Source of the DNA: Saprospiraceae bacterium
GTDB taxonomy: Bacteria; Bacteroidota; Bacteroidia; Chitinophagales; Saprospiraceae
DNA length: 40,403 nt
NCBI GenBank assembly: GCA_020436785.1
Contig: JAGQXC010000487.1
Span: 1 to 40,403, forward strand
Reading direction: 5' to 3'
The notes under the pieces were generated by a model. The model was not told the DNA's origin and made no database searches. It saw only the letters and a list, made by a program, of their open reading frames with translations. Position 1 is the stretch's first letter; each line of letters starts with the position of its first letter. The translations under genes were made by a program, and so were the position numbers. Shown piece by piece: positions 1 through 14,539 of the stretch.

Positions 1-980
1 CAGACAACTTTATCTACATCATACTCCTGGTAGCCCTGGCATTTTTGGCACTGATGCTAGGAAGAGTCATTATCAATACCCGCGGTATTCTGGAGGCCGA
101 AGCCAGCGGACAGATGCCGGTCAAACCTTCCTTTTGGAGTATGTTTACCAGCCGTGGGGTGGTTGGGTTTGCCATTTTTGCCCTCATCGTTTTAGGTAGT
201 TACACGACGGTCAAGAATGGTGTGGCACTGGGACGACAGCAAAATTACGCTCCGGAGCAGCCCATCAATTTCTCGCATGCGACACATGCCGGCGTCAATC
301 TTATCGACTGTCAATATTGCCACGATGGGGCTCGCCGTTCCAAACATTCCATCATTCCGGCGACCAATACCTGTATGAATTGCCACAAAGCCATCAAGTA
401 TGGCAGCACCTACGGGACGGCAGAATTAACCAAGATTTTTGTGGCTGCCGGATTCAACCCCAATACCGACACCTACATTGATCAATACGAAACACTGAGT
501 GAAGATGACATCGCCGCAATCTATAAGAAATGGATCGGCGATCAGTATATGAGTCAGGCCGGTACGGCATCACTGGACATGGAAGGTACCCGTACCGTAG
601 AAGATCAATGGAACAACATCGTTGAGTCCCTGACCAGCGAAACCAAGGAAAAATTGCAAGGCCCGATTGAATGGATTCGTATCCATAACCTGCCCGATCA
701 TGTTTACTTCAGCCATGCCCAGCATGTGACCGTAGGTAAACTGGAATGCCAGCAATGTCATGGTAAAGTGGAAGAAATGGAGACGGTCAGGCAGTATTCG
801 ACGCTCTCGATGGGGTGGTGCGTTAACTGCCACCGTCAAACGGAGGTATCCAGTTTTGGCGACAATAACTATTACCTGGAATCCTATAAAAAATACCATG
901 ATGAAATGGAAGCCGGTACCCGGAATGGTGTGACCGTGCAGGATATCGGTGGATTGGAATGCCAGAAATGCCACTATTAA
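1..980 (+). CDS. actA: ACIII pentaheme cytochrome c subunit ActA (5' partial)
   Basis: Electron-transfer subunit of alternative complex III, which oxidises quinol and reduces a periplasmic cytochrome c or an oxidase directly. Five CxxCH heme c motifs are visible: CQYCH (309-323), CMNCH (372-386), CQQCH (747-761), CVNCH (819-833) and CQKCH (960-974), the last one residue from the C-terminus. The frame is open from position 3 and already encodes a membrane helix there, so the true start lies upstream of the window; the TTG at 45 falls inside this helix and is not a credible start. Many Bacteroidota ActA proteins carry more sequence before the helix, which cannot be seen here. actB follows after 42 bp. 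Confidence 0.93.
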   Translation, partial: DNFIYIILLVALAFLALMLGRVIINTRGILEAEASGQMPVKPSFWSMFTSRGVVGFAIFALIVLGSYTTVKNGVALGRQQNYAPEQPINFSHATHAGVNLIDCQYCHDGARRSKHSIIPATNTCMNCHKAIKYGSTYGTAELTKIFVAAGFNPNTDTYIDQYETLSEDDIAAIYKKWIGDQYMSQAGTASLDMEGTRTVEDQWNNIVESLTSETKEKLQGPIEWIRIHNLPDHVYFSHAQHVTVGKLECQQCHGKVEEMETVRQYSTLSMGWCVNCHRQTEVSSFGDNNYYLESYKKYHDEMEAGTRNGVTVQDIGGLECQKCHY

Positions 981-1022: not shown

Positions 1023-4000
1023 ATGAAAGACAATAAAGTAGCCATCTGGATCGGAGAGAAAGATCTCAACCATGATCCCAAGTTTATGGAGGAAGCCGGC
1101 AATGAATTTGTCCGTATGCCTCTGGAGAAGATGGTAGAAAGATCGGCTTTGGAGAACGCAGGTTCTTCCCGTCGTGATTTTCTGAAATATCTTGGTTTTG
1201 GGTTGGGCGCCGCCACGGTTGCGGCCTCCTGTGAAATACCTGTGCGCAAAGCCCTGCCTTATGTGGTAAAACCGGATGCCATCGTACCCGGTATAGCCAA
1301 TTATTATGCTTCTTCCTTTGTAAAAGGTGGGGATTATTGTTCTGTACTGGTCAAAACCCGCGAGGGTCGTCCGATCAAGATTGAAGGCAACGACATGTCA
1401 CCGGTGACGAAGGGTGGTACTTCCGCCCGGGCCCAGGCCAGCGTTTTGGAGCTATACGACGTCAACCGGATAAAGGGTCCTGGTCGCATCGCTGACGGTA
1501 TGGTCAATGAGGGATCCTGGACAGCGCTGGATAAAGAAGTCCTGGGCGCTCTGCGGCCAAATTCCAACGTGCGCATTCTGACCAATACCATTCTCAGCCC
1601 GGCTTTGCACGCAGCCATCGGTGAATTTACCGGTGCCTACCCGAATACCAAGCTGGTGCAATACGATCCGGTATCCAGTGCAGCCTTGCTGATTGCCAAC
1701 GAACAGCAGTTCGGGCTTAAAAATGCACCCGATTACCATTTTGATAAAGCTCAGGTCGTCGTCGGATTTGAAGCTGATTTTCTGGGAACCTGGATCTCTC
1801 CGATTGAATACGCTAAAGATTACATCCAAAACCGGAAAATACACCATGAAGAGCACCCGGCCATGTCGCGTCACTACCACGTGGAGGCGCACATGTCACT
1901 GACCGGTTCCAATGCAGACAACCGTATATTGGTAAAGCCTAGTGAGCAAGGCGCCGCCATTGCCACGTTGTACAACGAAGTAGCCGCACAGACGGGAGGA
2001 AGCCGGGTAAATGTACCGGCCGGCTTGAATGAAAAGGCTGCCAGTGCGCTTAAAGCCGCCGCCAGGGACCTGGTGGCTCATCAAGGTGCTTCGCTGGTAG
2101 TTTCCGGTTCCAATTTGGTTGCCGAGCAATTATTGATCAATCAAATCAACTTGTTACTGGGTAATTACGGGAATACCATCACGTTCGCCCATGCATCCAA
2201 ACAACGACAGGGAGATGAGCGCGATGTTGCCCGGTTAATCCAGGAAATGCAGGGCGGCCAGGTAGATGTCTTGATCGTTTTAGGAGCCAACCCCGCCTTT
2301 GACCTGCCACAGGCAGCTGACTTTGTCGCTGCGCTTGCACAGGTGCCTTTGCGCATTTCGATGAATTCCCATGTCGATGAAACGACTGAACAATGTCAAT
2401 GGTCAGCTCCTGACCATCACATCCTTGAATCGTGGGGCGATGCGGAACCCAAGATTGGGCACTACAGCCTCATGCAGCCGACCATTAATCCTCTATTCGA
2501 TACCCGTCAAGCCGGATTGTCATTCCTGACCTGGGCGAAAAGTGATAAACTTCCGGCCAGTGATCAACCCTACCATGATTACATTCAGCAGTTGTGGCAG
2601 GAAAAAATGTTTCCACAGCAATCAGAATATTCGGTCTTCCAGGCCTTCTGGGATCACACCTTACACAATGGGGTATTCAGCGTCCCCGGCAATACCGAAC
2701 CTGCCTACAATGCGGTAGAAGTGAGTGGATTACAGGTTAGGAAACCGGGCGGGGAAGGCATGGAATTATCGCTTTTTGAAACCGTCAATCTCGGTGCCGG
2801 TCAATATTCCAATAATCCCTGGTTGCAGGAAATGCCCGATCCGGTCAGTCGCTGTGTGTGGGGAAATCACCTTGCCGTACCGGTTACTTACGATGGCTGG
2901 AAAACCATCGATGGTTTTGCCGGATTAAAAGATGGCGATGAAGTAAGTCTTAAAGCCGGAGAAGCCGACCTTACCGTACCTGTCATTCAGCAATTCGGCC
3001 AAATGGAAAATACCTTTGGCATTGCTCTGGGTTATGGCCGCACTGCCGCCGGACGTTGTGGTAATGGCATCGGAGTGAATGTCCAATCATTGGTTCAGGT
3101 TGATAACGGACTGTTCCAATATTACCGTTCTGGCATCGAAGTAAGCGGGAAGGCAGGTCGTGAAGAGCATTTTGCGTGTGTACAATACCACCACACCATG
3201 GGTGTGAAATCCATTGATAAAAACGGAGACCTGATCAATGCCGATGAAGCGGCCCTGGCTTCCGTTTCCATACCGTTCTTCAAAAAGACCCGCAGAGGGT
3301 TCCAGGGTGCTTTGACCGAGCGTTCGATTATCCATGGCACCCACGTATCCGAACTGGAATCATTTCTGGAGGAATTGCATGAGCAGCGGGAGGAGTTCCA
3401 GCATCTGAATGCCCAGACGCTCTATCCCGATTACTCAGACCAATACGGAAGAGGGCACCATTGGGGCATGCACATTGATCTGAATGCTTGCATCGGATGC
3501 GGAGCGTGTGCGGTTGCCTGTATGTCCGAAAACAATGTCCCGGTAGTCGGTAAGCGCAATGTGGCCCGTCATCAGGAAATGACCTGGCTGCGTATTGACC
3601 GGTATTTCTATGGGGATTTCGAAAATCCCAAAACGGTTTACCAGCCGATGATGTGTCAGCATTGTGATAACGCGCCTTGTGAAAACGTTTGTCCCGTGGA
3701 TGCGACCAACCACAGTTCCGAGGGCTTGAATCAAATGATCTATAACCGCTGTGTAGGAACCCGTTATTGCGCCAACAACTGCCCCTACAAGGTGCGCCGC
3801 CTGAACTGGGCCGATTATACCACGGCCGATTTGTGGCCGATCAATGAGCATAAGATCAACGAAGAACAAGTACAATTCTACGCCGATGACCTCACCCGAA
3901 TGGTACTCAATCCGGACGTTACAGTTCGGAGTCGCGGGGTGATGGAAAAATGCTCGTTCTGTGTTCAGCGTATTCAGGAAGGTAAACTCAATGCGAAAGA

Positions 4001-4220
4001 AGCGGGACGTCGCTTGCTTGATCGCGATGTTCGTACAGCCTGCCAAACGGCTTGTCCGACCGGCGCGATTACATTTGGGGATCAGAACAATCCGGAAGGA
4101 GAACTAACCGGCAAGTTCAAGTCACCTTTGAATTACATCGTACTGGAAGAAACCAACGTTAGGTCCAGTGTAAATTATACCGTGAAAGTGAACAATGCCA
4201 ATGAGGCACTGGAAGCCTGA
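1023..4220 (+). CDS. actB: ACIII molybdopterin-oxidoreductase-like / iron-sulfur subunit ActB
   Basis: Large periplasmic subunit of ACIII, a fusion of a molybdopterin-oxidoreductase-like half (cofactor normally absent in ActB) with a ferredoxin-like half; 1065 residues is normal. A twin-arginine motif SRRDFLK (R50-R51) is followed by a hydrophobic stretch and a lipobox-like AASC, so Cys70 is the likely lipidated residue. The C-terminal half holds four cysteine groups: C823/826/829/833, C878/881/886/890, C910/916/920 (the second position is Thr913) and C977/980/1007/1011. Fifteen cysteines fit three [4Fe-4S] clusters and one [3Fe-4S] cluster. The start ATG precedes the Tat signal by about 50 residues, as is usual in ActB. 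Confidence 0.95.
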   Translation: MKDNKVAIWIGEKDLNHDPKFMEEAGNEFVRMPLEKMVERSALENAGSSRRDFLKYLGFGLGAATVAASCEIPVRKALPYVVKPDAIVPGIANYYASSFVKGGDYCSVLVKTREGRPIKIEGNDMSPVTKGGTSARAQASVLELYDVNRIKGPGRIADGMVNEGSWTALDKEVLGALRPNSNVRILTNTILSPALHAAIGEFTGAYPNTKLVQYDPVSSAALLIANEQQFGLKNAPDYHFDKAQVVVGFEADFLGTWISPIEYAKDYIQNRKIHHEEHPAMSRHYHVEAHMSLTGSNADNRILVKPSEQGAAIATLYNEVAAQTGGSRVNVPAGLNEKAASALKAAARDLVAHQGASLVVSGSNLVAEQLLINQINLLLGNYGNTITFAHASKQRQGDERDVARLIQEMQGGQVDVLIVLGANPAFDLPQAADFVAALAQVPLRISMNSHVDETTEQCQWSAPDHHILESWGDAEPKIGHYSLMQPTINPLFDTRQAGLSFLTWAKSDKLPASDQPYHDYIQQLWQEKMFPQQSEYSVFQAFWDHTLHNGVFSVPGNTEPAYNAVEVSGLQVRKPGGEGMELSLFETVNLGAGQYSNNPWLQEMPDPVSRCVWGNHLAVPVTYDGWKTIDGFAGLKDGDEVSLKAGEADLTVPVIQQFGQMENTFGIALGYGRTAAGRCGNGIGVNVQSLVQVDNGLFQYYRSGIEVSGKAGREEHFACVQYHHTMGVKSIDKNGDLINADEAALASVSIPFFKKTRRGFQGALTERSIIHGTHVSELESFLEELHEQREEFQHLNAQTLYPDYSDQYGRGHHWGMHIDLNACIGCGACAVACMSENNVPVVGKRNVARHQEMTWLRIDRYFYGDFENPKTVYQPMMCQHCDNAPCENVCPVDATNHSSEGLNQMIYNRCVGTRYCANNCPYKVRRLNWADYTTADLWPINEHKINEEQVQFYADDLTRMVLNPDVTVRSRGVMEKCSFCVQRIQEGKLNAKEAGRRLLDRDVRTACQTACPTGAITFGDQNNPEGELTGKFKSPLNYIVLEETNVRSSVNYTVKVNNANEALEA

Positions 4221-4256: not shown

Positions 4257-5669
4257 ATGAGTCATACTCCTGTTTCACCAATCCGAGCTCCATTAGTAAA
4301 TGGTCATAAGACGTACCATCAGATCACGGAGGATCTTTCTTCGCCTACGGAGAAAAAGCCGAATACCATGTGGTGGATCGCCTTTGCCGTGTCAGTCACT
4401 TTTCTGACTATTGGGGTAATATGCATCATTTTGACCATCTGGGATGGTGTCACCGAATGGAACTTGAACCGGACCATCGGGTGGGGCTGGGACATTACCA
4501 ACTTCGTTTGGTGGATTGGTATTGGTCATGCGGGAACCCTGATTTCCGCGATCTTACTGCTGTTCCGTCAAAAATGGCGGACCGGTGTTAACCGTGCAGC
4601 AGAAGCTATGACCATTTTTGCGGTTATGTGTGCCGCACTATTCCCGGCCATCCACGTTGGGAGGATCTGGGTTGTCTTCTTTTTCTTCCCTTATCCCAAC
4701 AGCCGAGGACCGGTTTGGCCCAATTTCAATTCCCCATTGCTGTGGGACTTGTTCGCCATCAGCACCTACTTTACGGTTTCATTGCTTTTCTGGTATACCG
4801 GCTTGGTTCCGGACTTCGCAACCTTGCGGGATCGTTCGAAAGGTATCCGTCGGAAACTGTATAATCTCGTATCCTTTGGTTGGACCGGATCGGCAAAGCA
4901 CTGGCAACGTCATGAATCCTTGTCACTGGTGTTGGCAGGACTGGCAACCCCGCTGGTCCTTTCTGTCCACACCATTGTAAGTTTCGACTTTGCCACGTCA
5001 GTGATACCGGGATGGCATACGACCATTTTCCCACCATACTTTGTGGCTGGGGCCATCTTTTCCGGTTTTGCCATGGTGCAAACCTTGATGGTGATTACCC
5101 GGAAGGTGCTGAATCTTAAGGAGTACATAACCCTGGAGCACATCGAATCGATGAATAAGGTGATTCTGCTTACCGGTACCATTGTGGGCGTAGCCTATTT
5201 GACTGAACTTTTCATTTCCTGGTATTCCGGCTACATCTATGAGCAATTTGCCTTCTTTAACCGCGCATTAGGACCGTACTGGTGGTCCTATTTCGGGATG
5301 ATGCTGTGCAATGTGGTATCGCCTCAGTTGTTCTGGTCTAAGAAAATTCGCCGCAGTGTTTGGTGGACATTCTTTATGTCCATTTTCGTAAACATCGGGA
5401 TGTGGTTCGAGCGGTTTGTCATCATTGCGACGACGCTGGCTCGTGACTACCTGCCCTCTTCCTGGAGTTATTATAAACCTACGATGGTAGAGATTGGAAT
5501 CTTCCTGGGCACCCTGGGCATTTTCTTTACCCTCTACCTGATCTTTACGAGGGTGGCTCCAGTCGTTGCAGTGGCCGAGATCAAGCATATTTTGAAAACG
5601 GCTGGGGACCAGTATGTGGGCAAAGATGCAACGCATCATCATTCGGCAGAAATCGCACATAAATCCTAA
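4257..5669 (+). CDS. actC: ACIII NrfD/PsrC-like membrane subunit ActC
   Basis: Integral membrane quinol-oxidising subunit of ACIII, of the NrfD/PsrC family. The 470-residue protein shows about ten hydrophobic helices. The region from WWIGIGHAG through FPAIHVGR and the loop around YPNSRGPVWPNFNSP is typical of ActC and contributes to the quinol site and the proposed proton path in homologues. The C-terminal tail is His-rich (DATHHHSAEIAHKS). It starts 36 bp after actB and is followed by actD after 18 bp, in the conserved ACIII gene order. Confidence 0.94.
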   Translation: MSHTPVSPIRAPLVNGHKTYHQITEDLSSPTEKKPNTMWWIAFAVSVTFLTIGVICIILTIWDGVTEWNLNRTIGWGWDITNFVWWIGIGHAGTLISAILLLFRQKWRTGVNRAAEAMTIFAVMCAALFPAIHVGRIWVVFFFFPYPNSRGPVWPNFNSPLLWDLFAISTYFTVSLLFWYTGLVPDFATLRDRSKGIRRKLYNLVSFGWTGSAKHWQRHESLSLVLAGLATPLVLSVHTIVSFDFATSVIPGWHTTIFPPYFVAGAIFSGFAMVQTLMVITRKVLNLKEYITLEHIESMNKVILLTGTIVGVAYLTELFISWYSGYIYEQFAFFNRALGPYWWSYFGMMLCNVVSPQLFWSKKIRRSVWWTFFMSIFVNIGMWFERFVIIATTLARDYLPSSWSYYKPTMVEIGIFLGTLGIFFTLYLIFTRVAPVVAVAEIKHILKTAGDQYVGKDATHHHSAEIAHKS

Positions 5670-5687: not shown

Positions 5688-6215
5688 ATGGCAAATCAAA
5701 AAGAAGTTTTATTCGGATTGTATTCAGATGAGGAGGTCTTGTTAAAGGCTATCCACAAAGCCAAAGCAGCCCATCTGGATATCATGGACGTCTTCACTCC
5801 ATTTCCGGTTCATGGTTTGGATGAAGCTTTGGATCTGAAGGAATCCCGGCTGCATATTGTCGGCTTTATCTTTGGACTGCTGGGAGCCTTGACTGCTTTC
5901 CTGGGGATGACCTGGATCTTTGTGGACGACTGGCCGATCATTATTGGAGGAAAACCTTATTGGTCGGTGCCCGCATTTATTCCGATCACCTTTGAACTCA
6001 CCGTATTGTTCGCATCCATCGGGATGGTGGTTGTTTTTTATGTGATCGGCGGATTAGGCCCTGGGGTCACCAATCCTACCCTGGACGACCGCATCACCGA
6101 TGATAAATTTTGCATTGCTTTCGATCAGCACGGTTTGAGTGAGAAAGATGTCGATAAGGTTAAGGCATTTTTGAAAGACAGTGGTGCCGAAGAAATACAT
6201 ACGAAAACCATCTAA
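5688..6215 (+). CDS. actD: ACIII subunit ActD (DUF3341)
   Basis: Small membrane subunit of ACIII, DUF3341 family, 175 residues as expected. The N-terminal soluble part starts with KEVLFGLYSDEEVLLKA, followed by a two-helix hairpin: one helix at about residues 60-85, then a loop containing GGKPYWSVPAFIPITFE, then the second helix. A short soluble tail closes the protein. No cofactor motif is present; in solved ACIII structures ActD is a peripheral two-helix subunit packed against the NrfD-like subunits. It lies between actC (18 bp) and actE (13 bp). Confidence 0.92.
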   Translation: MANQKEVLFGLYSDEEVLLKAIHKAKAAHLDIMDVFTPFPVHGLDEALDLKESRLHIVGFIFGLLGALTAFLGMTWIFVDDWPIIIGGKPYWSVPAFIPITFELTVLFASIGMVVVFYVIGGLGPGVTNPTLDDRITDDKFCIAFDQHGLSEKDVDKVKAFLKDSGAEEIHTKTI

Positions 6216-6228
6216 GCAACAAGATATT

Positions 6229-7023
6229 ATGCAATCAATAAAATATGGCGTTTTTGTCCTTGGGTTGATGTTCCTGGTCTACGCCTGTTCTCCGGCCAAA
6301 GGTAACCGTACCGGGCATGAATACATGCCGGATATGGTCCATTCGACTGCTTATGAGGCCAATGTCATGAACTATTATTACTTCAATACGTGGGGCAGCA
6401 AACAGGAATTGAAAGCTTTTGCATTGCCGCGTTTACCAGTCAAAGGCACCATTGCCCGAGGTTATGAAGGGGGTGGTGTTGAGCCTGGTAACATCAATAT
6501 TCCGCTTAATGGCGCGGTGCCATTCTATTACGGACCAAGTGAAGAAGAACGGATCCGTGCCACCGCCGAGATCATTGATAATCCATATCCGATCACGGCA
6601 GCCGGCCTGGCCGAAGGCAAAAAATTGTACGACATCTATTGCGCCATTTGTCATGGCCCGAAAGGGGATGGCCTTGGCTACCTGGTCCGCGATGACGGTG
6701 GTAAGTACCCTGCTCAGCCGGCGATCTTTACGTCAGACGACTTTATTAATTCTTCCAACGGACGGTACTATTTTGCAATCATGTACGGAAAGAATGTGAT
6801 GGGCTCGTACGACGATAAGTTGTCTTATGAAGAAAGGTGGCAAGTGATTCATTACATCCGATCGCTGCAAGCCGCCAAGACCGGAGCCAAATACTCCGAA
6901 GATGTAAATACGTTAAACGATGTTGATATTCCCGGTGCCGCATGGAAATCCGATAAGGAAATGATGCCTATGGAAGCAACCGGTATGGATGAATCGTCCA
7001 TGGAAAGTCATTCACAGCACTAA
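6229..7023 (+). CDS. actE: ACIII monoheme cytochrome c lipoprotein ActE
   Basis: Periplasmic monoheme cytochrome c subunit of ACIII, 264 residues. The ATG at 6229 gives a lipoprotein signal (hydrophobic stretch ending LVYAC); an in-frame GTG at 6181 would overlap actD by 35 bases and destroy the signal. Heme c motif CAICH is at residues 138-142 and the likely axial Met is Met191 in KNVMGSY. The mature N-terminus (RTGHEYMPDM) and the PVKGTIARGYE segment match the ActE family. The C-terminus is Met/His-rich (MDESSMESHSQH). Heme transfer probably runs from the ActA hemes to ActE or directly to the oxidase. Confidence 0.93.
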   Translation: MQSIKYGVFVLGLMFLVYACSPAKGNRTGHEYMPDMVHSTAYEANVMNYYYFNTWGSKQELKAFALPRLPVKGTIARGYEGGGVEPGNINIPLNGAVPFYYGPSEEERIRATAEIIDNPYPITAAGLAEGKKLYDIYCAICHGPKGDGLGYLVRDDGGKYPAQPAIFTSDDFINSSNGRYYFAIMYGKNVMGSYDDKLSYEERWQVIHYIRSLQAAKTGAKYSEDVNTLNDVDIPGAAWKSDKEMMPMEATGMDESSMESHSQH

Positions 7024-7042
7024 TTATTCGGAAAACAAGAGT

Positions 7043-8281
7043 ATGAATACCTTCACTTTTGAACGAAGCCAGCGCATGTTTTTTGGAGTCTTGATGGGCA
7101 TCGGACTTCTTTGCGCAATTATCTTATTTGCACAAAACGGTCCCCTGCATGCGCGATTTTGGTCGGATGTTTTGCACAACTCAGTCTTTTTTACCGGCAT
7201 CGCGGTGATGGCCCTGTTCTTTCTTGGTGCGAGTGTCACGGCTATGGCCGGATGGTACACGGTTTTCAAGCGAGTATGGGAAGCCTTCAGTTTGTTTCTG
7301 TTGGTAGGAATTATCTTGATGGTTTTCCTAGCCCTAGGCAACTACCTGGGATTTCATCACTTATACCATTGGAATGATGCTGAATCCGTTGCCGACGATG
7401 TGTTGCTAAAAGGAAAATCCCACTTCCTCAATCGCGGATGGTATTTATTCGGTACCATCATCATCATGGGCGCATGGATTTATTTTGCCCGTAAGATCCG
7501 AACGCTTTCCATACAGGAAGACGAAAATCCGGGTCCTGATTTCCAACAACACCGCAAAATTCGGGTATGGGCTGCCGCCGTTCTGCCCTTGATTGGATTT
7601 TCCAGTGCAGCAACCATCTGGTTATGGGTTATGTCCGTCGATCCTCACTGGTATTCGACGTTGTTTGCCTGGTATTCTGCGGCCAGCTGGTTTGTTGCAA
7701 TGGTCGCTTTGACAATTATGTTGATGGGATACTTGCAGTCCAAAGGTTACTTCCCCGATTTCAACCGGGATCATCTGCACGATTTGGGTAAGTTTCTTTT
7801 CGCTTTCAGCATTTTCTGGACCTACTTATGGTTTTCACAATTCATGCTGATCTGGTACGGCAACGTAGGTGAGGAAACGACCTATTTCTTGACGCGGCGT
7901 GAACAATACCCCGTCCTTTTCTATGGCAATCTGGTGGTGAACTTTGTTCTACCGTTCCTGGTTTTACTGCGTAACGATACCAAGCGGAAACTGGGTACGA
8001 TGTTCTTTGTATCCGGGATTGTTTTCTTTGGTCATTGGATCGATTATTTCTTGATGATCAAACCAGGCGTTCTCCATACGACCATGGAACTCAGTGGTGC
8101 CGAAGGGCATGGATCCCATGCGTTGGGCGCTGGATTTGCATTACCCGGATTTTTGGAAATAGGTCTGATGCTGGGCTTTTTAGGGCTCTTCCTTTATGTA
8201 GTTTTCTGGCAATTAAGTAAAGCTTCTCTGATGCCTAAGAATGATCCTTATTTGGCTGAGAGCATCCATCACCATGTTTAA
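7043..8281 (+). CDS. actF: ACIII NrfD-like membrane subunit ActF
   Basis: Second NrfD/PsrC-like membrane subunit of ACIII, 412 residues with about ten helices. The start is taken at ATG 7043 (MNTFTFERSQRMFFG), which avoids the 35-base overlap with actE that a start at 6989 would give. Family-typical segments include HHLYHWND, FLNRGWYL, MSVDPHWYSTLFAWY and HDLGKFLFAFSIFWTYLWFSQFMLIWYGN. ActF is a paralogue of ActC and is thought to contribute to proton translocation. The tail ends in SIHHHV. coxB starts 33 bp downstream, the ACIII-oxidase junction seen in many Bacteroidota. Confidence 0.93.
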   Translation: MNTFTFERSQRMFFGVLMGIGLLCAIILFAQNGPLHARFWSDVLHNSVFFTGIAVMALFFLGASVTAMAGWYTVFKRVWEAFSLFLLVGIILMVFLALGNYLGFHHLYHWNDAESVADDVLLKGKSHFLNRGWYLFGTIIIMGAWIYFARKIRTLSIQEDENPGPDFQQHRKIRVWAAAVLPLIGFSSAATIWLWVMSVDPHWYSTLFAWYSAASWFVAMVALTIMLMGYLQSKGYFPDFNRDHLHDLGKFLFAFSIFWTYLWFSQFMLIWYGNVGEETTYFLTRREQYPVLFYGNLVVNFVLPFLVLLRNDTKRKLGTMFFVSGIVFFGHWIDYFLMIKPGVLHTTMELSGAEGHGSHALGAGFALPGFLEIGLMLGFLGLFLYVVFWQLSKASLMPKNDPYLAESIHHHV

Positions 8282-8314: not shown

Positions 8315-9811
8315 ATGTCGACTCCGCTGATCATCGTTCTCATATCCATCCTGGTCATGGTGCTGATCGTCCAGATCGCCCGGCTTACCGAACTATCGGG
8401 CATCCTGCGTGGAGATGAGGAAACGGAAGCCCGCAACAACCGCTCTCAGGCAATGTGGTTGCTCATTTTTATGGTTCTTTTCCTGGTCTTTTGTATTGGC
8501 ACAGCCATTCATTATAAAGATTACATGTTGGGATTTGGCCCGCTCAAGTCCTCAAGCATTCATGGAGAAGAATTGGATAGCATCTTCTACATTACGCTGT
8601 TTTTCACCGGGATTGTATTTGTTGCAACCCAGGTAGCCTTATTCTGGTTCAGTTACCGCTATCGAGGCGAGAAGGGGCGTAAAGCCTTATTCCTGGCACA
8701 CAACAATAAACTGGAGATTTGGTGGTCCGTCATTCCTGCACTCGTGATGTGCGGATTGGTGGCCAAGGGACTGGTCGCCTGGAACAAAGTGATGGCTGAT
8801 GTGAACGAAGACGAGGATGCAATCGAAATTGAAGCGACCGGCATGCAATTTAACTGGATCCTGCGCTATCCGGGACCGGACGGTGCTTTGGGAACCCGCG
8901 ATTACCATAAAATCACTGCTGCCAACCCATTGGGGCAGGATTATACAGATGAAAAAAACCTCGATGACTTTTTACCTGACGAACTAGTGCTGCCGGTCAA
9001 TAAGAAAGTCAGGGTACGGATCATGGCACGGGATGTGCTGCACAATTTTTATTTGCCTCACTTCAGGGTAAAAATGGATGCCGTGCCCGGTATTCCTACC
9101 TATTTTGTTTTTACCCCCAAGGAAACCACCCAGGAATTCCGTGATCGCTTGCGTGCCAGTGGAAAATACGAATTCCTTTACGACGATACGGATCCGTCAC
9201 TCGGACCTTACTGGAAGAATGTGAACTTTGAACTTGCCTGCGCGGAATTATGTGGGAAAGGCCACTTTTCGATGCGTAAAACCGTACGAATTGTGTCCGA
9301 TGCCGAATACCAGGCCTGGCTGAGCAACCAAAAGTCCTATTACCTCAACAGCATCCGGAATTCTGATGAAGATCCTTACAAAGGGCAACTGTTGAATGTT
9401 GACGTGGAAAGTCGCAAGGCTGAATTCATGAATGCCTTCAGCAAGGCGGATACCGCCTCTTCAGCTGCCGACCGGATCGTCCAATTGAAATATGTGCAGT
9501 TCGAAACGGGGTCCGCGACCCTCACTGCCTTGTCCAGATATGAGTTAGGAAACTTGATCGATGTGCTGAATGATCATCCGGATCTGCGTATCGAACTGGC
9601 CGGACATACCGATAGCACGGGCGATGCAACCGCCAATCAGGAATTGTCCCAACAACGTGCTGAAGCCGTGCTGAATTACCTGACTGATCATGGTATCAAT
9701 GGTGACCGGCTACGTGCGGTGGGATATGGACAGAACCGGCCGATTGATACCAATGAGACGGAAGAAGGAAGACAAAATAATCGCAGAACCGAATTCCAAA
9801 TTTTAAATTAA
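8315..9811 (+). CDS. coxB: Cytochrome c oxidase subunit II fused to a C-terminal OmpA-like domain
   Basis: Cu-A electron-entry subunit of the aa3-type oxidase, 498 residues in one uninterrupted frame. Four hydrophobic helices (about 3-22, 47-64, 91-113, 133-155) precede the cupredoxin domain; the last two are the standard pair. Cu-A ligands are His243 (DVLHNF), Cys309, Glu311, Cys313, His317 and Met320 (CAELCGKGHFSM). After a linker (about 330-390) comes a full OmpA C-terminal domain (391-498), with AGHTDSTGD, LSQQRAEAV, GYGQNRPI and EGRQNNRRTEF. Asp433 and Arg448 occupy the positions that bind diaminopimelate in OmpA domains. Subunit II of caa3 oxidases carries cytochrome c here, so this fusion is unusual; it would tie the oxidase to peptidoglycan. 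Confidence 0.96.
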   Translation: MSTPLIIVLISILVMVLIVQIARLTELSGILRGDEETEARNNRSQAMWLLIFMVLFLVFCIGTAIHYKDYMLGFGPLKSSSIHGEELDSIFYITLFFTGIVFVATQVALFWFSYRYRGEKGRKALFLAHNNKLEIWWSVIPALVMCGLVAKGLVAWNKVMADVNEDEDAIEIEATGMQFNWILRYPGPDGALGTRDYHKITAANPLGQDYTDEKNLDDFLPDELVLPVNKKVRVRIMARDVLHNFYLPHFRVKMDAVPGIPTYFVFTPKETTQEFRDRLRASGKYEFLYDDTDPSLGPYWKNVNFELACAELCGKGHFSMRKTVRIVSDAEYQAWLSNQKSYYLNSIRNSDEDPYKGQLLNVDVESRKAEFMNAFSKADTASSAADRIVQLKYVQFETGSATLTALSRYELGNLIDVLNDHPDLRIELAGHTDSTGDATANQELSQQRAEAVLNYLTDHGINGDRLRAVGYGQNRPIDTNETEEGRQNNRRTEFQILN

Positions 9812-9827: not shown

Positions 9828-11672
9828 ATGGCTGAGGTTATAAAGTATGAGCCTGAAGTATTGATCGAACAGCAAGGATTCGATGATCATTTTCATGAAC
9901 ACCATCATGGAGATAAATATCAATCCAATTTCATTACAACCTATGTGTTCAGTCAGGATCATAAAATAATCGCCCGGCAGTTCCTTATTACGGGAATGTT
10001 TTGGGCGATCGTGGGAGCAGCGATGTCTGTGATCTTCCGGTTGCAACTTGGTTTTCCGGAAGAAAGTATGACCTGGCTCAAACCTATATTAGGCCAGTGG
10101 ATCACCGTTGGTGATGATGGGGTAGGGCATCTTTCCCAGGAATTCTACTATGCCCTGGTGACCATGCATGGAACCATTATTGTTTTCTTTGTGCTTACTG
10201 CAGGCTTAAGTGGAACATTTTCTAATTTGTTGATCCCCTTGCAGATCGGCGCACGGGATATGGCCTCTCCATTCCTGAACATGTTGTCGTACTGGTTTTT
10301 CTTTTTAGCCAGTGTGGTCATGTTCCTCTCATTGTTTGTCAGTACCGGACCATTTGCCGGGGGCTGGACGGCCTATCCGCCGCTATCGGCATTACCCCAG
10401 GCTTCATCCGGTTCGGGGACAGGTATGACTCTTTGGCTGGTAAGTTTGGTCTTCTTCGTGGTTTCGGTTTTGTTGGGGGGCATTAACTACATCACAACCG
10501 TATTGAATCTCCGCACCAAAGGGATGAGTATGTGGCGCATGCCACTGACCATTTGGGCATTTTTGATAACAGCCATCATCGGTCTGCTGTCCTTCCCGGT
10601 CCTCGTTTCCGGGTTTCTGTTGCTGATGTTTGACCGGACTTTAGGTACCAGTTTTTACCTGAGCGATATTTACATTGCCGGCCATGCTTTGGATTTTTCA
10701 GGGGGTAGCCCCATCCTATACCAGCACATGTTCTGGTTCCTGGGCCACCCGGAAGTATACATCATCATTTTGCCTGCGATGGGAATCGTATCGGAAGTCA
10801 TGTCAGTACATGCACGCAAGCCGATCTTCGGTTACCGGGCAATGGTCTTGTCGATCCTGGCCATTGCATTCCTTTCTTTCATCGTTTGGGCACACCACAT
10901 GTTTATGGCAGGTGTCAATCCATTTATTTCCAATTTCTTCGTGCTTTTCACCCTGATCATTGCAGTTCCATCCGCAGTGAAAGTATTTAACTGGATTGCT
11001 ACTTTATTCGGGGGTAATCTCCGCTTGAACACACCGATGCTCTATGCCATTGGTTTCGTTTCGATGTTTATTTCCGGTGGTTTGACGGGTATTTATCTCG
11101 GTAACTCAGCCATCGATATCCAGATGCACGATACCTATTTTGTGGTTGCTCACTTCCACATTGTTATGGGTGTTGCGGCGTTCTTCGGAATGTTTGCTGG
11201 CATCTACCACTGGTTTCCCAAGATGTTTGGACGATTTATGAACGAGACGCTGGGGAAAGTGCATTTCTGGTTAACCATGATTGGTGCTTATGCAATCTTC
11301 TGGCCGATGCACTACCTGGGTATGGCCGGAGTGCCTCGGCGCTATTACAGCTTTGACCAATTCGATGCTTTCCGGCATTTTACGGAAATGAATAAATTTA
11401 TAACCATTGCCGCCATCATCGTCTTCCTGGCACAATTGCTTTTCGTATTCAACTTTTTCTATTCCATCTGGTATGGCCGTAAAATGAAAAGCAAAAATCC
11501 CTGGGGCGCCAATACCCTGGAGTGGACCACTCCGATCAAGCCTGATCACGGTAACTGGCCGGGTAAAATACCGACCGTTCACCGCTGGGCATATGATTAC
11601 GGAAAGGATGGAAATGAATTCATTCCTCAATATGTTCCATTAGCCGAGGGTGAAGAGGCTGGCGATCATTAA
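9828..11672 (+). CDS. coxA: Cytochrome c oxidase subunit I
   Basis: Catalytic subunit of the heme-copper oxidase, 614 residues with twelve or more helices. Ligands are all visible: His114 (TMHGT) and His444 for heme a, His442 for heme a3 (AHFHIVMG), and His307, His356 and His357 for Cu-B. GHPEVY supplies Glu309 and the cross-link tyrosine Tyr311, and Asp144 in GARDMASP matches the D-channel entry, so this is an A1-type enzyme. The N-terminus is longer than usual and His-rich (HFHEHHHGDK, residues 21-30). It follows coxB by 16 bp and precedes ctaB by 21 bp. Confidence 0.97.
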   Translation: MAEVIKYEPEVLIEQQGFDDHFHEHHHGDKYQSNFITTYVFSQDHKIIARQFLITGMFWAIVGAAMSVIFRLQLGFPEESMTWLKPILGQWITVGDDGVGHLSQEFYYALVTMHGTIIVFFVLTAGLSGTFSNLLIPLQIGARDMASPFLNMLSYWFFFLASVVMFLSLFVSTGPFAGGWTAYPPLSALPQASSGSGTGMTLWLVSLVFFVVSVLLGGINYITTVLNLRTKGMSMWRMPLTIWAFLITAIIGLLSFPVLVSGFLLLMFDRTLGTSFYLSDIYIAGHALDFSGGSPILYQHMFWFLGHPEVYIIILPAMGIVSEVMSVHARKPIFGYRAMVLSILAIAFLSFIVWAHHMFMAGVNPFISNFFVLFTLIIAVPSAVKVFNWIATLFGGNLRLNTPMLYAIGFVSMFISGGLTGIYLGNSAIDIQMHDTYFVVAHFHIVMGVAAFFGMFAGIYHWFPKMFGRFMNETLGKVHFWLTMIGAYAIFWPMHYLGMAGVPRRYYSFDQFDAFRHFTEMNKFITIAAIIVFLAQLLFVFNFFYSIWYGRKMKSKNPWGANTLEWTTPIKPDHGNWPGKIPTVHRWAYDYGKDGNEFIPQYVPLAEGEEAGDH

Positions 11673-11693: not shown

Positions 11694-12605
11694 TTGAAAC
11701 AAACAAATCAGCATAGTACGCCGGCAGTTGGTACACTTGAGGTGAAGACCTATTCGAAGGTCCAGGATTTAAAACTGCTTTTTAAATTCAGGTTGACGTT
11801 GATGGTCGTTTTTACCTCTGTCATCGGGTACCTCATTGCCTCCGGGGGGGACATTCACTGGGGAAGCCTTGGATTGTTATTGCTGGGAGGTTTTTCCATC
11901 ACCGCAGCGTCAAATACGCTGAATGAAGTTCTCGAAAAGGATTACGATGCCTTGATGAAGCGCACCGCCAACCGGCCTCTTCCAGCCGGAAGGATGACGG
12001 TCTCTCAGGCTGTGATCATTGCTGGATTATTGGCTGCACTGGGCATTGTTGCTCTGGCGTTTTTTAATCCGCTCACCACGTTACTTGGTGCTTTGTCACT
12101 CGTGATTTATGCATTTTTATATACGCCGTTGAAGCGGATAACCTCGCTTTCGGTGATGGTCGGTGCTGTACCGGGAGCTTTGCCGGCATTGATTGGCTAC
12201 GTTGCCTATACGGGTTCTATTGGCCCGGTCGCATTGATTTTGTTTACCATTCAATTTATCTGGCAGATGCCCCATTTCTGGTCAATTGGCTGGTTGGGCT
12301 TTGAAGATTACCAGGAAGCCGGCTATAAATTATTACCCAATATGGCAGCCGGCAAGACCCGGGAGATCAGTAAATATGCGTTCATTTATACGTTGTATTT
12401 ATTGCCGGTCAGTGCCATTCCGGGATTTTTGGGATTATTGTCCTGGACCAGTTGCCTGGCCATAGGAGTGGCAAGCATGTATTTCATCTGGAAAGCTTAT
12501 CAATTTTATCAACACAATGATAAAGCCAGTGCGAAGGGACTTTTGTATGCTTCCTTATTGTACCTGCCATTTTCATTTATTGTGGTCCTTATAGATTCTT
12601 TATAA
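11694..12605 (+). CDS. ctaB: Protoheme IX farnesyltransferase (heme O synthase)
   Basis: UbiA-family prenyltransferase that farnesylates protoheme to heme O, the precursor of heme A for the neighbouring oxidase. The first Asp-rich motif lies at residues 77-95 (N77, D83, D85, R90-T91, R94-P95) and a second polar loop follows at GFEDYQEAGYKLLPN. About eight to nine helices, 303 residues. The start is TTG at 11694: the next in-frame ATG lies inside helix 1 and a purine-rich AGAAGAGAG sits just upstream. It ends one base before the next gene. No ctaA (heme A synthase) is present in the window. Confidence 0.94.
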   Translation: MKQTNQHSTPAVGTLEVKTYSKVQDLKLLFKFRLTLMVVFTSVIGYLIASGGDIHWGSLGLLLLGGFSITAASNTLNEVLEKDYDALMKRTANRPLPAGRMTVSQAVIIAGLLAALGIVALAFFNPLTTLLGALSLVIYAFLYTPLKRITSLSVMVGAVPGALPALIGYVAYTGSIGPVALILFTIQFIWQMPHFWSIGWLGFEDYQEAGYKLLPNMAAGKTREISKYAFIYTLYLLPVSAIPGFLGLLSWTSCLAIGVASMYFIWKAYQFYQHNDKASAKGLLYASLLYLPFSFIVVLIDSL

Positions 12606-12606
12606 A

Positions 12607-13185
12607 ATGCAAACATTGAATTATCAGCAAGAATACACGCAAAGCAAGATCCATCCGCATAAATTGGCGCTATGGATCTCACTGGCCAGTATACTGATGA
12701 TGTTCGCTGCGTTCACCAGTGCCTATATGGTCCGTAAGGGAGCAGGCAATTGGCTGGACTATGAAATACCTTCCATTTTTTACGTGAGTACGGCCGTCAT
12801 GCTAATGAGTAGTGTGGCGATACAATATGCATATCTGTCCTATAAAAACGGCAGGGAAATCGCTTACAAAGTTTGCTTGATTTTAACCTTTTTGCTGGGC
12901 ATTACCTTCGTCATCCTGCAATATCAGGGATGGACGGAGTTGTACGGACTGGGGATTGAAATTAATGGTAATCCTTCCGGGTCCTTTTTTTATGTGATCA
13001 GTGGTGTTCATGCTGCGCACGTACTGGGTGGATTGGCCATCCTGAGCGTTGCCATGATTCATGCCTTTGGATTGCCATTCACCTTTCTAAAAAATCGATT
13101 AACCCGACTCGAGTTGACAACAACATATTGGCATTTCGTTGATCTTCTCTGGGTCTATTTATTATTCTTTCTGTTAATACAATGA
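12607..13185 (+). CDS. coxC: Cytochrome c oxidase subunit III, short copy
   Basis: Five-helix subunit III of the heme-copper oxidase, 192 residues. Recognisable segments are FTSAYMVRKGAGNW at the end of helix 1, GVHAAHVLGG in the helix that carries the GxHxxHV signature, and TTYWHFVDLLWVYLLF at the C-terminus. The start ATG lies one base after the ctaB stop, so translation is probably coupled. A second, longer subunit III gene follows after 7 bp; paired subunit III genes are common in Bacteroidota oxidase operons. The short loop before the GVHAAHV helix is of normal length, unlike in the second copy. Confidence 0.92.
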   Translation: MQTLNYQQEYTQSKIHPHKLALWISLASILMMFAAFTSAYMVRKGAGNWLDYEIPSIFYVSTAVMLMSSVAIQYAYLSYKNGREIAYKVCLILTFLLGITFVILQYQGWTELYGLGIEINGNPSGSFFYVISGVHAAHVLGGLAILSVAMIHAFGLPFTFLKNRLTRLELTTTYWHFVDLLWVYLLFFLLIQ

Positions 13186-13192
13186 TGATCAT

Positions 13193-14131
13193 ATGGCTGA
13201 GACGTTATCTAGCGAAATAGTAGATCAGGACAAAAATTTGTGGTCCGGGGGAAAACCACCCATGAAAGTCAGTTATGGCAAACTCATGATGTGGTACTTT
13301 CTGCTTTCCGATGCATTCACCTTCGCCGGCCTTTTGATCGGATACGGTGCGCTTCGGTTTAGTATGCCCAACTGGCCGGTTCCGGAAAAGGTATTTAACA
13401 AATTCCCTTTTGCGGATGCCGAATTACCCTTGATCTTCGTAACCTTTATGACCTTTGTCCTGCTGGCCAGTTCCTTTACCATGATGAGGGCAGTTCAGGA
13501 AGGCCATGAAGAAAATCGTAAAGGAGTCATCAAATGGATGATATTAACCATCCTGGGAGGCTTTACCTTTTTAGGTTGCCAGGCCTGGGAGTGGACTACC
13601 TTGATCGCCAAGGAGCATGCATCCATCCATACCAATCCATTCGGCCGGCTAACGGAAGATGGGATCTACCTGAATGCGGATGGTAGTGAAGGTGAAGCTT
13701 TTGAAGCGGGGCAAAGTTACCTCATCCACAACATTAAAAGTCACGAAGCGGCCCACGGGGAAAGCCATGAAGGAGGCCATGAGGCTTCGGTTGGTCATAC
13801 CGAGCCGGGAGATTATCCGGATGCATTCATTGACCAGGAAGGTTACATTCATCGAAAGTTTAAAGTGACCTCCGGTGCGGACGCCGGTCAGATTCAATCG
13901 GAACCTTTTGGGCCGAAAGCATTTGGCGGGTTGTTCTTTTTTATAACCGGCTTCCATGGCTTTCACGTCTTTTCAGGCGTATTGTTTTTAACAATCATCC
14001 TGATTAATGTGATCAGCGGCATTTATGTAGCTCGTAAGAATGGCTACGAAATGGTTGAGAAAATTGGCCTTTACTGGCACTTCGTAGACCTGGTATGGGT
14101 CTTTGTTTTCCTTGTATATTATCTAATTTAA
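13193..14131 (+). CDS. Cytochrome c oxidase subunit III, long copy with His-rich insert
   Basis: Second subunit III of the same oxidase, 312 residues. The fold elements are MMWYFLLSDAFTFAGLL (helix 1), GFTFLGCQAWEW, FGGLFFFITGFHGFHVFSG and LYWHFVDLVWVFVFLVYYLI. Between the QAWEW helix and the GGLFFF helix lies an insert of about 85-100 residues (138-243) where standard subunit III has roughly 15-20. It is rich in His, Glu and Gly (SHEAAHGESHEGGHEASVGH) and, by subunit III topology, faces the periplasm. ACIII-associated aa3 oxidases are known to be modified for contact with ACIII, so a docking or metal-binding role is possible but unproven. Confidence 0.93.
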   Translation: MAETLSSEIVDQDKNLWSGGKPPMKVSYGKLMMWYFLLSDAFTFAGLLIGYGALRFSMPNWPVPEKVFNKFPFADAELPLIFVTFMTFVLLASSFTMMRAVQEGHEENRKGVIKWMILTILGGFTFLGCQAWEWTTLIAKEHASIHTNPFGRLTEDGIYLNADGSEGEAFEAGQSYLIHNIKSHEAAHGESHEGGHEASVGHTEPGDYPDAFIDQEGYIHRKFKVTSGADAGQIQSEPFGPKAFGGLFFFITGFHGFHVFSGVLFLTIILINVISGIYVARKNGYEMVEKIGLYWHFVDLVWVFVFLVYYLI

Positions 14132-14155: not shown

Positions 14156-14539
14156 ATGGCACACGATCACGAAGCTGGCAAAAAATTGGCCTTAAAGACC
14201 ATCCTGGTACTGGCTGCAATCACCGTCACCGAAGTATTGATTGCCTTGACCGCTAAAGGATATGTCATCAATGGATTTCACATGGCGGAGGCATTACTCG
14301 CGGTCATCATGATCGTCATGAGTGCTTACAAAGCTTATTTGATTGTCTTTGAATTCATGCATATGCGTCATGAAGTCAAAGGGTTGAGGTTAAGTGTACT
14401 ATTGCCTATGTTGTTATTGGTCTGGGCGGTAATTGCATTTTTCTATGAAGGCAACGATTGGATGGAACGCAGGGATCAGATCATCAAGAAAAACGAGCAA
14501 AAGCCAGCCATCGAAAGCATTGAGCCGATTACCAATTGA
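14156..14539 (+). CDS. Cytochrome c oxidase subunit IV-like protein (prokaryotic COX4 family)
   Basis: Small three-helix protein (127 residues) in the usual place of the prokaryotic subunit IV. Helices are at about 12-33, 42-65 and 80-100. The segment FMHMRHEVKGLRLSVLLPMLLLVWAVIAFFYEG matches the family, whose members stabilise the oxidase. The N-terminus is MAHDHEAGKK, one of several His-rich ends in this gene run, and the C-terminal tail is charged. The gene begins 24 bp after the second subunit III gene; a 104-bp gap without a recognised signal separates it from the SCO-like gene. Confidence 0.85.
   Translation: MAHDHEAGKKLALKTILVLAAITVTEVLIALTAKGYVINGFHMAEALLAVIMIVMSAYKAYLIVFEFMHMRHEVKGLRLSVLLPMLLLVWAVIAFFYEGNDWMERRDQIIKKNEQKPAIESIEPITN

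Follow-up and report, generated by a model that had tools for sequence, protein, structure and literature searches.

The 40,403-nt window analysed here (contig JAGQXC010000487.1, assembly GCA_020436785.1) stems from a Saprospiraceae bacterium and contains coxB-ompA, a gene for a cytochrome oxidase subunit II that continues in frame into a C-terminal OmpA domain of the peptidoglycan-binding type. The best overall explanation is that the product probably belongs to an aa3-type oxidase that is associated with alternative complex III (ACIII) and anchored to the cell wall. We regard a wider reading as only slightly favored, i.e. a Saprospiraceae-type wall-anchored ACIII-oxidase supercomplex with one OmpA domain, placed several times independently on either of two periplasmic subunits, so that the wall determines where respiration takes place and how mobile it is, or how wide the gap between membrane and wall is. 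The strongest evidence, which escaped the preliminary description of the window, is that other lineages carry an OmpA domain on the cytochrome subunit ActE instead.

The fusion frame contains no stop over 498 codons. All three domains exceed their Pfam cut-offs, i.e. COX2_TM (PF02790, residues 78-146, 25.2 bits, cut-off 22.8), COX2 (PF00116, residues 172-260, 40.7 bits, cut-off 22), and OmpA (88.9 bits, cut-off 27.2), and the last is also predicted to adopt an OmpA fold. It has the highest score among the 18 OmpA domains of the genome. In an alignment of 27 fusions, all six positions of the Cu-A ligands (Table 1) are invariant, in agreement with the preliminary description of a Cu-A subunit II that runs on into a complete OmpA domain. 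The score for the NCBIfam CoxB equivalog TIGR02866 (131.5 bits) is below the cut-off of 147.7, showing that the subunit II of the window is divergent; this cut-off is a naming threshold, and the domains, ligands, fold, and gene neighbors still fit a Cu-A subunit II. That caa3 oxidases carry a cytochrome c at the C-terminus of subunit II had been stated correctly. Here, the OmpA domain occupies this place, the coxB-ompA translation has no CxxCH motif, and no cytochrome c family is found among its Pfam matches. The length of the linker in 70 fusions ranges from 32 to 70 residues, with a median of 45.

To determine the distribution of the fusion, we screened 298 genomes from the order with a fusion profile; matches were listed to about E 1e-114, so that very divergent fusions could escape. 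In the window's own family (f1, the Saprospiraceae group), at least 72 of 87 genomes matched over the full length with no internal stop; one of these, G203, is a single contig of 7.5 Mb. The other f1 genomes have an unfused subunit II (10 of 87), a broken one (one, G301), a match that extends only to profile position 464-465, so that the tail looks decayed (two), or no match (two). Outside f1, at least six of 211 genomes of the order contain the full fusion (families f4, f8, f18, and f19), and one further fusion (G107) is interrupted by a contig end. Among the matches listed, to about E 1e-83, for 286 class genomes outside the order (295 in total), no subunit II-OmpA fusion was present. In draws from the phylum (365 genomes each, overlapping with the other samples, with strict limits of E 1e-105 and 1e-60), full-length CoxB fusions were found solely in six f1 genomes, and no ActE fusion was found. 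Carriers include the isolates Membranihabitans marinus, M. maritimus, Lewinella sp. W8, and Neolewinella antarctica. The named records are classed as Saprospiraceae, Lewinellaceae, or plain Bacteroidota, plus one metagenome-assembled genome (MAG) titled Aureispira, and both Haliscomenobacteraceae records (L158 and L166) lack an intact OmpA domain. A further carrier, contig L125 of a MAG named Thermoanaerobaculia (Acidobacteriota), places inside the Saprospiraceae in the tree, probably owing to a binning error.

An assembly or frame error that joined two genes was ruled out. No stop or frameshift, which the preliminary description had named as potentially fatal to its proposal, separates the subunit II from the OmpA part, and the stop-free fusion recurs in at least 72 of the 87 f1 genomes and in cultured isolates. 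We found nothing in favor of such an error and assign it a negligible probability.

Twelve long subunit II frames from other families of the class are of a different type (L095-L106; 420-543 residues, 71-204 of them before the core), and none of them has an OmpA domain. The five proteins inspected have a CxxCH within the N-terminal extension, where a Pfam check of one (L096) confirmed a cytochrome c, so that, judged by sequence, this type is an N-terminal cytochrome c fusion. For 10 of the 12, no ActD or ActF was seen in the respective stretch, one of which is just 4.3 kb long.

In the PorE domain crystallized with a peptidoglycan fragment, it is the side chains of D576, N584, and R591 that form hydrogen bonds with the fragment (PMC7192894). 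D433, N441, and R448 of the window have the same spacing. They are invariant in the 27-row alignment, and each of the three residues is present in 59 of 59 distinct CoxB fusions and in 27 of 27 other OmpA domains used for comparison. The earlier statement that Asp433 and Arg448 of the presumed diaminopimelate pocket are in place holds. The values for the ActE fusions are 13 of 16 for Asp and Asn, and 16 of 16 for Arg. The ratio of nonsynonymous to synonymous substitutions (dN/dS) of the OmpA domain is 0.07-0.21 (computable for five of 10 close pairs, three of them near saturation), compared to 0.01-0.08 for the subunit II core (five pairs), showing purifying selection on the domain that is weaker than that on the core.

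In several lineages with an unfused subunit II, an OmpA domain is located at the C-terminus of ActE, the gene of which lies between actD and actF. Such loci were found in f1 (L067-L070), in two other families of the order (L084, L086, and L088), in Saprospiraceae MAGs (L161, L162, L163, and L165), and in two more families of the class (L115-L119). Of the 298 genomes surveyed in the order, 14 gave an ActE-OmpA match over the full length at a limit of E 1e-58 (one each in f1 and f2, and 12 in f12), and a partial match in G063 (f12) was, on inspection, a fifteenth full fusion. The cytochrome part of the L084 ActE is broken by a run of N. Three of the matched stretches contain one TAA; of these, L086 has a single open frame of 393 codons that covers both domains. 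In another f12 genome (G160, L223), the ActE frame (967-2217) and the frame of an OmpA domain (2061-2576) overlap in different reading frames, which may be an assembly slip, a split gene, or a frameshift. A structure model of ActE-OmpA, built from six rows, has a predicted local distance difference test score (pLDDT) of only 54, and the OmpA part (blocks of 65-91) seems folded.

We compared the two locations at 120 loci with both genes, a count that includes some genomes fetched twice. The domain is on subunit II only at 65 loci, on ActE only at 13, on neither at 42, and on both at none. A tree of 105 rows was calculated from the subunit II core and subunit I, omitting the OmpA domain (59 rows with the domain on subunit II, 11 on ActE, and 35 without it). 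Identical cores and cores of <230 residues were left out, hence L115 and L116 are not included, and L117-L119 are absent because the stretch fetched contained no subunit II. According to the starred branches, the ActE state changed at least five times. Three of the ActE clades lie in f1.

The origin of the domains was addressed with domain trees of about 110 columns, one of which was built from 55 of the 102 domain rows. When the trees were left free, most ActE domains placed among other OmpA domains with weak support. A tree in which the f1 CoxB and f1 ActE domains were constrained together exceeded the free tree by 42 log units, and approximately unbiased (AU) tests, from which six divergent rows were omitted, rejected none of three groupings (p 0.27-0.84). 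The domain may thus have been relocated within the operon. In f8, f18, and f19, the CoxB domains cluster (support 99/95) with two OmpA domains from proteins that are not part of an oxidase, which were checked and are neither ActE nor subunit II; this cluster is apart from the CoxB domains of the window's family. This separate grouping argues for a second CoxB-OmpA fusion event. The domain could also be a mere passenger, i.e. the result of an accidental, harmless fusion with no special function in the oxidase, and it would fit that lineages survive in which the domain is missing or looks decayed. The separate groups of CoxB and ActE fusions, the conserved pocket residues, and the dN/dS values for the computable pairs make this quite improbable.

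Several observations weigh against a wall anchor or against its exclusive placement. The sister species that lack the domain and the f1 genomes without a full-length subunit II fusion (detailed above) show that it is dispensable. The ActE fusions of family f74 (L117-L119) have other residues in place of the pocket Asp and Asn and keep the Arg. In one lineage (L113, L120, L156, and L158; G275 and G247 are two of these four loci), the tail has kept its length and has P and K instead of Asp and Arg; these tails reach 6-9 bits with the OmpA profile and an hhalign probability of 20%, and they are likely decayed wall-binding domains. Among 11 independent pairs, the two locations changed in the same way in none and in opposite ways in one to three (p 0.25-1), too few for significance. 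A crude branch-length estimate gives probabilities of 0.27, 0.075, and 0.02 (for one, two, and three origins, respectively) that all ActE gains avoid the f1 branches above the subunit II fusions by chance.

In the 20 Å map of the Rhodothermus marinus supercomplex, subunit II adjoins the ACIII cytochromes and is well placed to receive electrons from ActE (PMC5928083), so that both carriers could position the domain about alike. As a further point against, the same source states that the Flavobacterium johnsoniae supercomplex is arranged otherwise (PMC5928083). The six-heme ActA of the present group resembles that of F. johnsoniae, and therefore it is not certain that ActE and subunit II lie close together here. 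If the two are neighbors, a protein-protein clamp would fit as well. In this main rival explanation, the OmpA domain binds ActA or ActE (or subunit II, when it is located on ActE) and stabilizes the supercomplex, without contacting peptidoglycan. The R. marinus map is compatible with it, as are the four tails that hold their length although the pocket residues are lost. A clamp would, however, have no need of the pocket Asp, Asn, and Arg, which all 59 distinct CoxB fusions keep, and we consider it unlikely, albeit less so than a passenger.

We propose the following for the wall-anchored oxidase. The coxB-ompA product would function as the Cu-A subunit II in an oxidase of the aa3 type, which in turn associates with ACIII. 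The OmpA domain would reach upward on a flexible linker and bind the diaminopimelate of the peptidoglycan stem peptides non-covalently, so that the respiratory complex would be tied to the wall, as the flagellar stator is by MotB. A single anchor, on subunit II or on ActE, would suffice. Subunit II could do without a cytochrome c of its own, since ActA probably supplies a sixth-heme domain, as in F. johnsoniae, and an electron donor would not be wanting. A wall anchor had already been suggested in the preliminary description; the wall-binding module is now backed by sequence, fold, conservation, and the ActE location, from which we infer that the domain binds peptidoglycan. The other effects suggested there, i.e. 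a defined membrane-to-wall distance or complexes held in place with limited lateral diffusion, would be consequences of such binding.

The genes around the fusion are summarized in Table 1. The oxidase genes directly follow actA to actF, the gene order expected for an ACIII-oxidase supercomplex, and by analogy to F. johnsoniae and R. marinus, we infer that the two complexes are physically associated in the organism of the window. Full-length relatives of ActA have six CxxCH motifs; in all 12 relatives inspected, one of the six is near the N-terminus, in the part that is missing in the window. Extended segments with a high content of histidine, glutamate, and aspartate were observed in loops or tails of ActF (L061, L069, L072, and L093) and in the ActE linker of L088.

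Table 1. Features of the ACIII-oxidase gene cluster and of the coxB-ompA product in the window
Feature	Position	Strand	Remarks
actA, multiheme cytochrome c	45..980	+	5' part lost at contig start; five CxxCH in window
actB, molybdopterin-like/iron-sulfur subunit	1023..4220	+	
actC, NrfD-like subunit	4257..5669	+	
actD	5688..6215	+	PF11821
actE, monoheme cytochrome c	6181..7023	+	no OmpA domain here; present on ActE in other lineages
actF	6989..8281	+	assigned by cluster position and because relatives conserve it; no Pfam match reaches its cut-off
coxB-ompA	8315..9811	+	498 aa; subunit II of the oxidase, OmpA domain at the C-terminus
subunit II membrane part	8315..8794	+	residues 1-160; modelled helices 3-70, 82-115, 131-159
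Cu-A ligand positions (presumed)	9041..9274	+	H243, C309, E311, C313, H317, M320
linker	9344..9478	+	residues 344-388; helix 361-379 predicted in it
OmpA C-terminal domain (peptidoglycan-binding type)	9479..9805	+	residues 389-497; Pfam PF00691 at 396-490
D433, N441, R448	9611..9658	+	match PorE D576, N584, R591, which hold diaminopimelate, by alignment and spacing
coxA, oxidase subunit I	9828..11672	+	
heme o synthase	11694..12605	+	
two COX3-family genes	12607..13185 and 13193..14131	+	
COX4_pro	14156..14539	+	

Respiratory complexes are usually pictured as diffusing within the membrane. The pattern described here suggests that these bacteria fasten part of the respiratory chain to the wall; if true, a conserved wall anchor of an oxidase would mean that energy metabolism is physically bound to the cell wall. 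One removable domain, together with naturally unanchored sister species, offers a clean genetic handle on the position and mobility of the respiratory chain, and the decayed-looking tails of the four loci are a natural test case for the wall-binding domain. In F. johnsoniae, deletion of ActE slows growth and leaves the aa3 activity unimpaired (PMC8552683); given this phenotype, ActE-OmpA offers a lead on ActE. The deposited F. johnsoniae ActE chain comprises 162 residues.

The closest known systems are the aa3-ACIII supercomplex of F. johnsoniae (6btm) and the ACIII-caa3 supercomplex of R. marinus (6f0k), which share the gene order of actABCDEF followed by the oxidase genes and the Cu-A subunit II. 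The mobile sixth heme domain of the F. johnsoniae ActA, described in PMC8552683, probably has its counterpart in the sixth, N-terminal CxxCH of the relatives of the window. The subunit II of the group of the window ends in an OmpA domain; for the two supercomplexes, neither a wall anchor nor the word "peptidoglycan" is mentioned in the accessible parts of the two descriptions (PMC8552683, PMC5928083). The OmpA domain itself resembles those of Capnocytophaga OmpA (5wtp), PorE (6top), Pal, and YiaD in sequence, fold, and diaminopimelate-pocket residues. These are outer-membrane proteins or lipoproteins, whereas the domain of the window is part of a respiratory enzyme of the inner membrane. In the ActE-OmpA of Bacteroidia, a domain of this type likewise forms the C-terminus of a periplasmic subunit from the same cluster, with the monoheme ActE as host instead of subunit II.

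Among the papers listed by the literature searches, we found no description of an OmpA-type anchor on a respiratory oxidase or complex III; several listings showed only part of the matches (20 of 82, 10 of 33, 8 of 15, and 8 of 10), and most subscription journals were beyond reach. The claim that no system of this kind has been described was nevertheless too strong. MotB, PomB, and TssL/TagL belong to inner-membrane complexes that grip the wall with a C-terminal OmpA domain, and these anchors withstand torque or force; unlike the oxidase, the MotB/PomB stators and TssL/TagL are not redox enzymes. Structures of MotB, PomB, and TagL were among the matches of our structure-database searches. PsaB of the Gloeobacter violaceus photosystem I (7f4v_aB) is part of an energy-converting membrane complex and resembles OmpA near its C-terminus (residues 772-863 of 872, E 1.1e-11), where older work reportedly pointed out a peptidoglycan-binding motif. 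It differs in being photosynthetic, and the OmpA-like stretch is unbuilt in the structure, for which residues 3-727 are listed (PMC9000952). The Cu-A subunit II and the OmpA domain are each already known.
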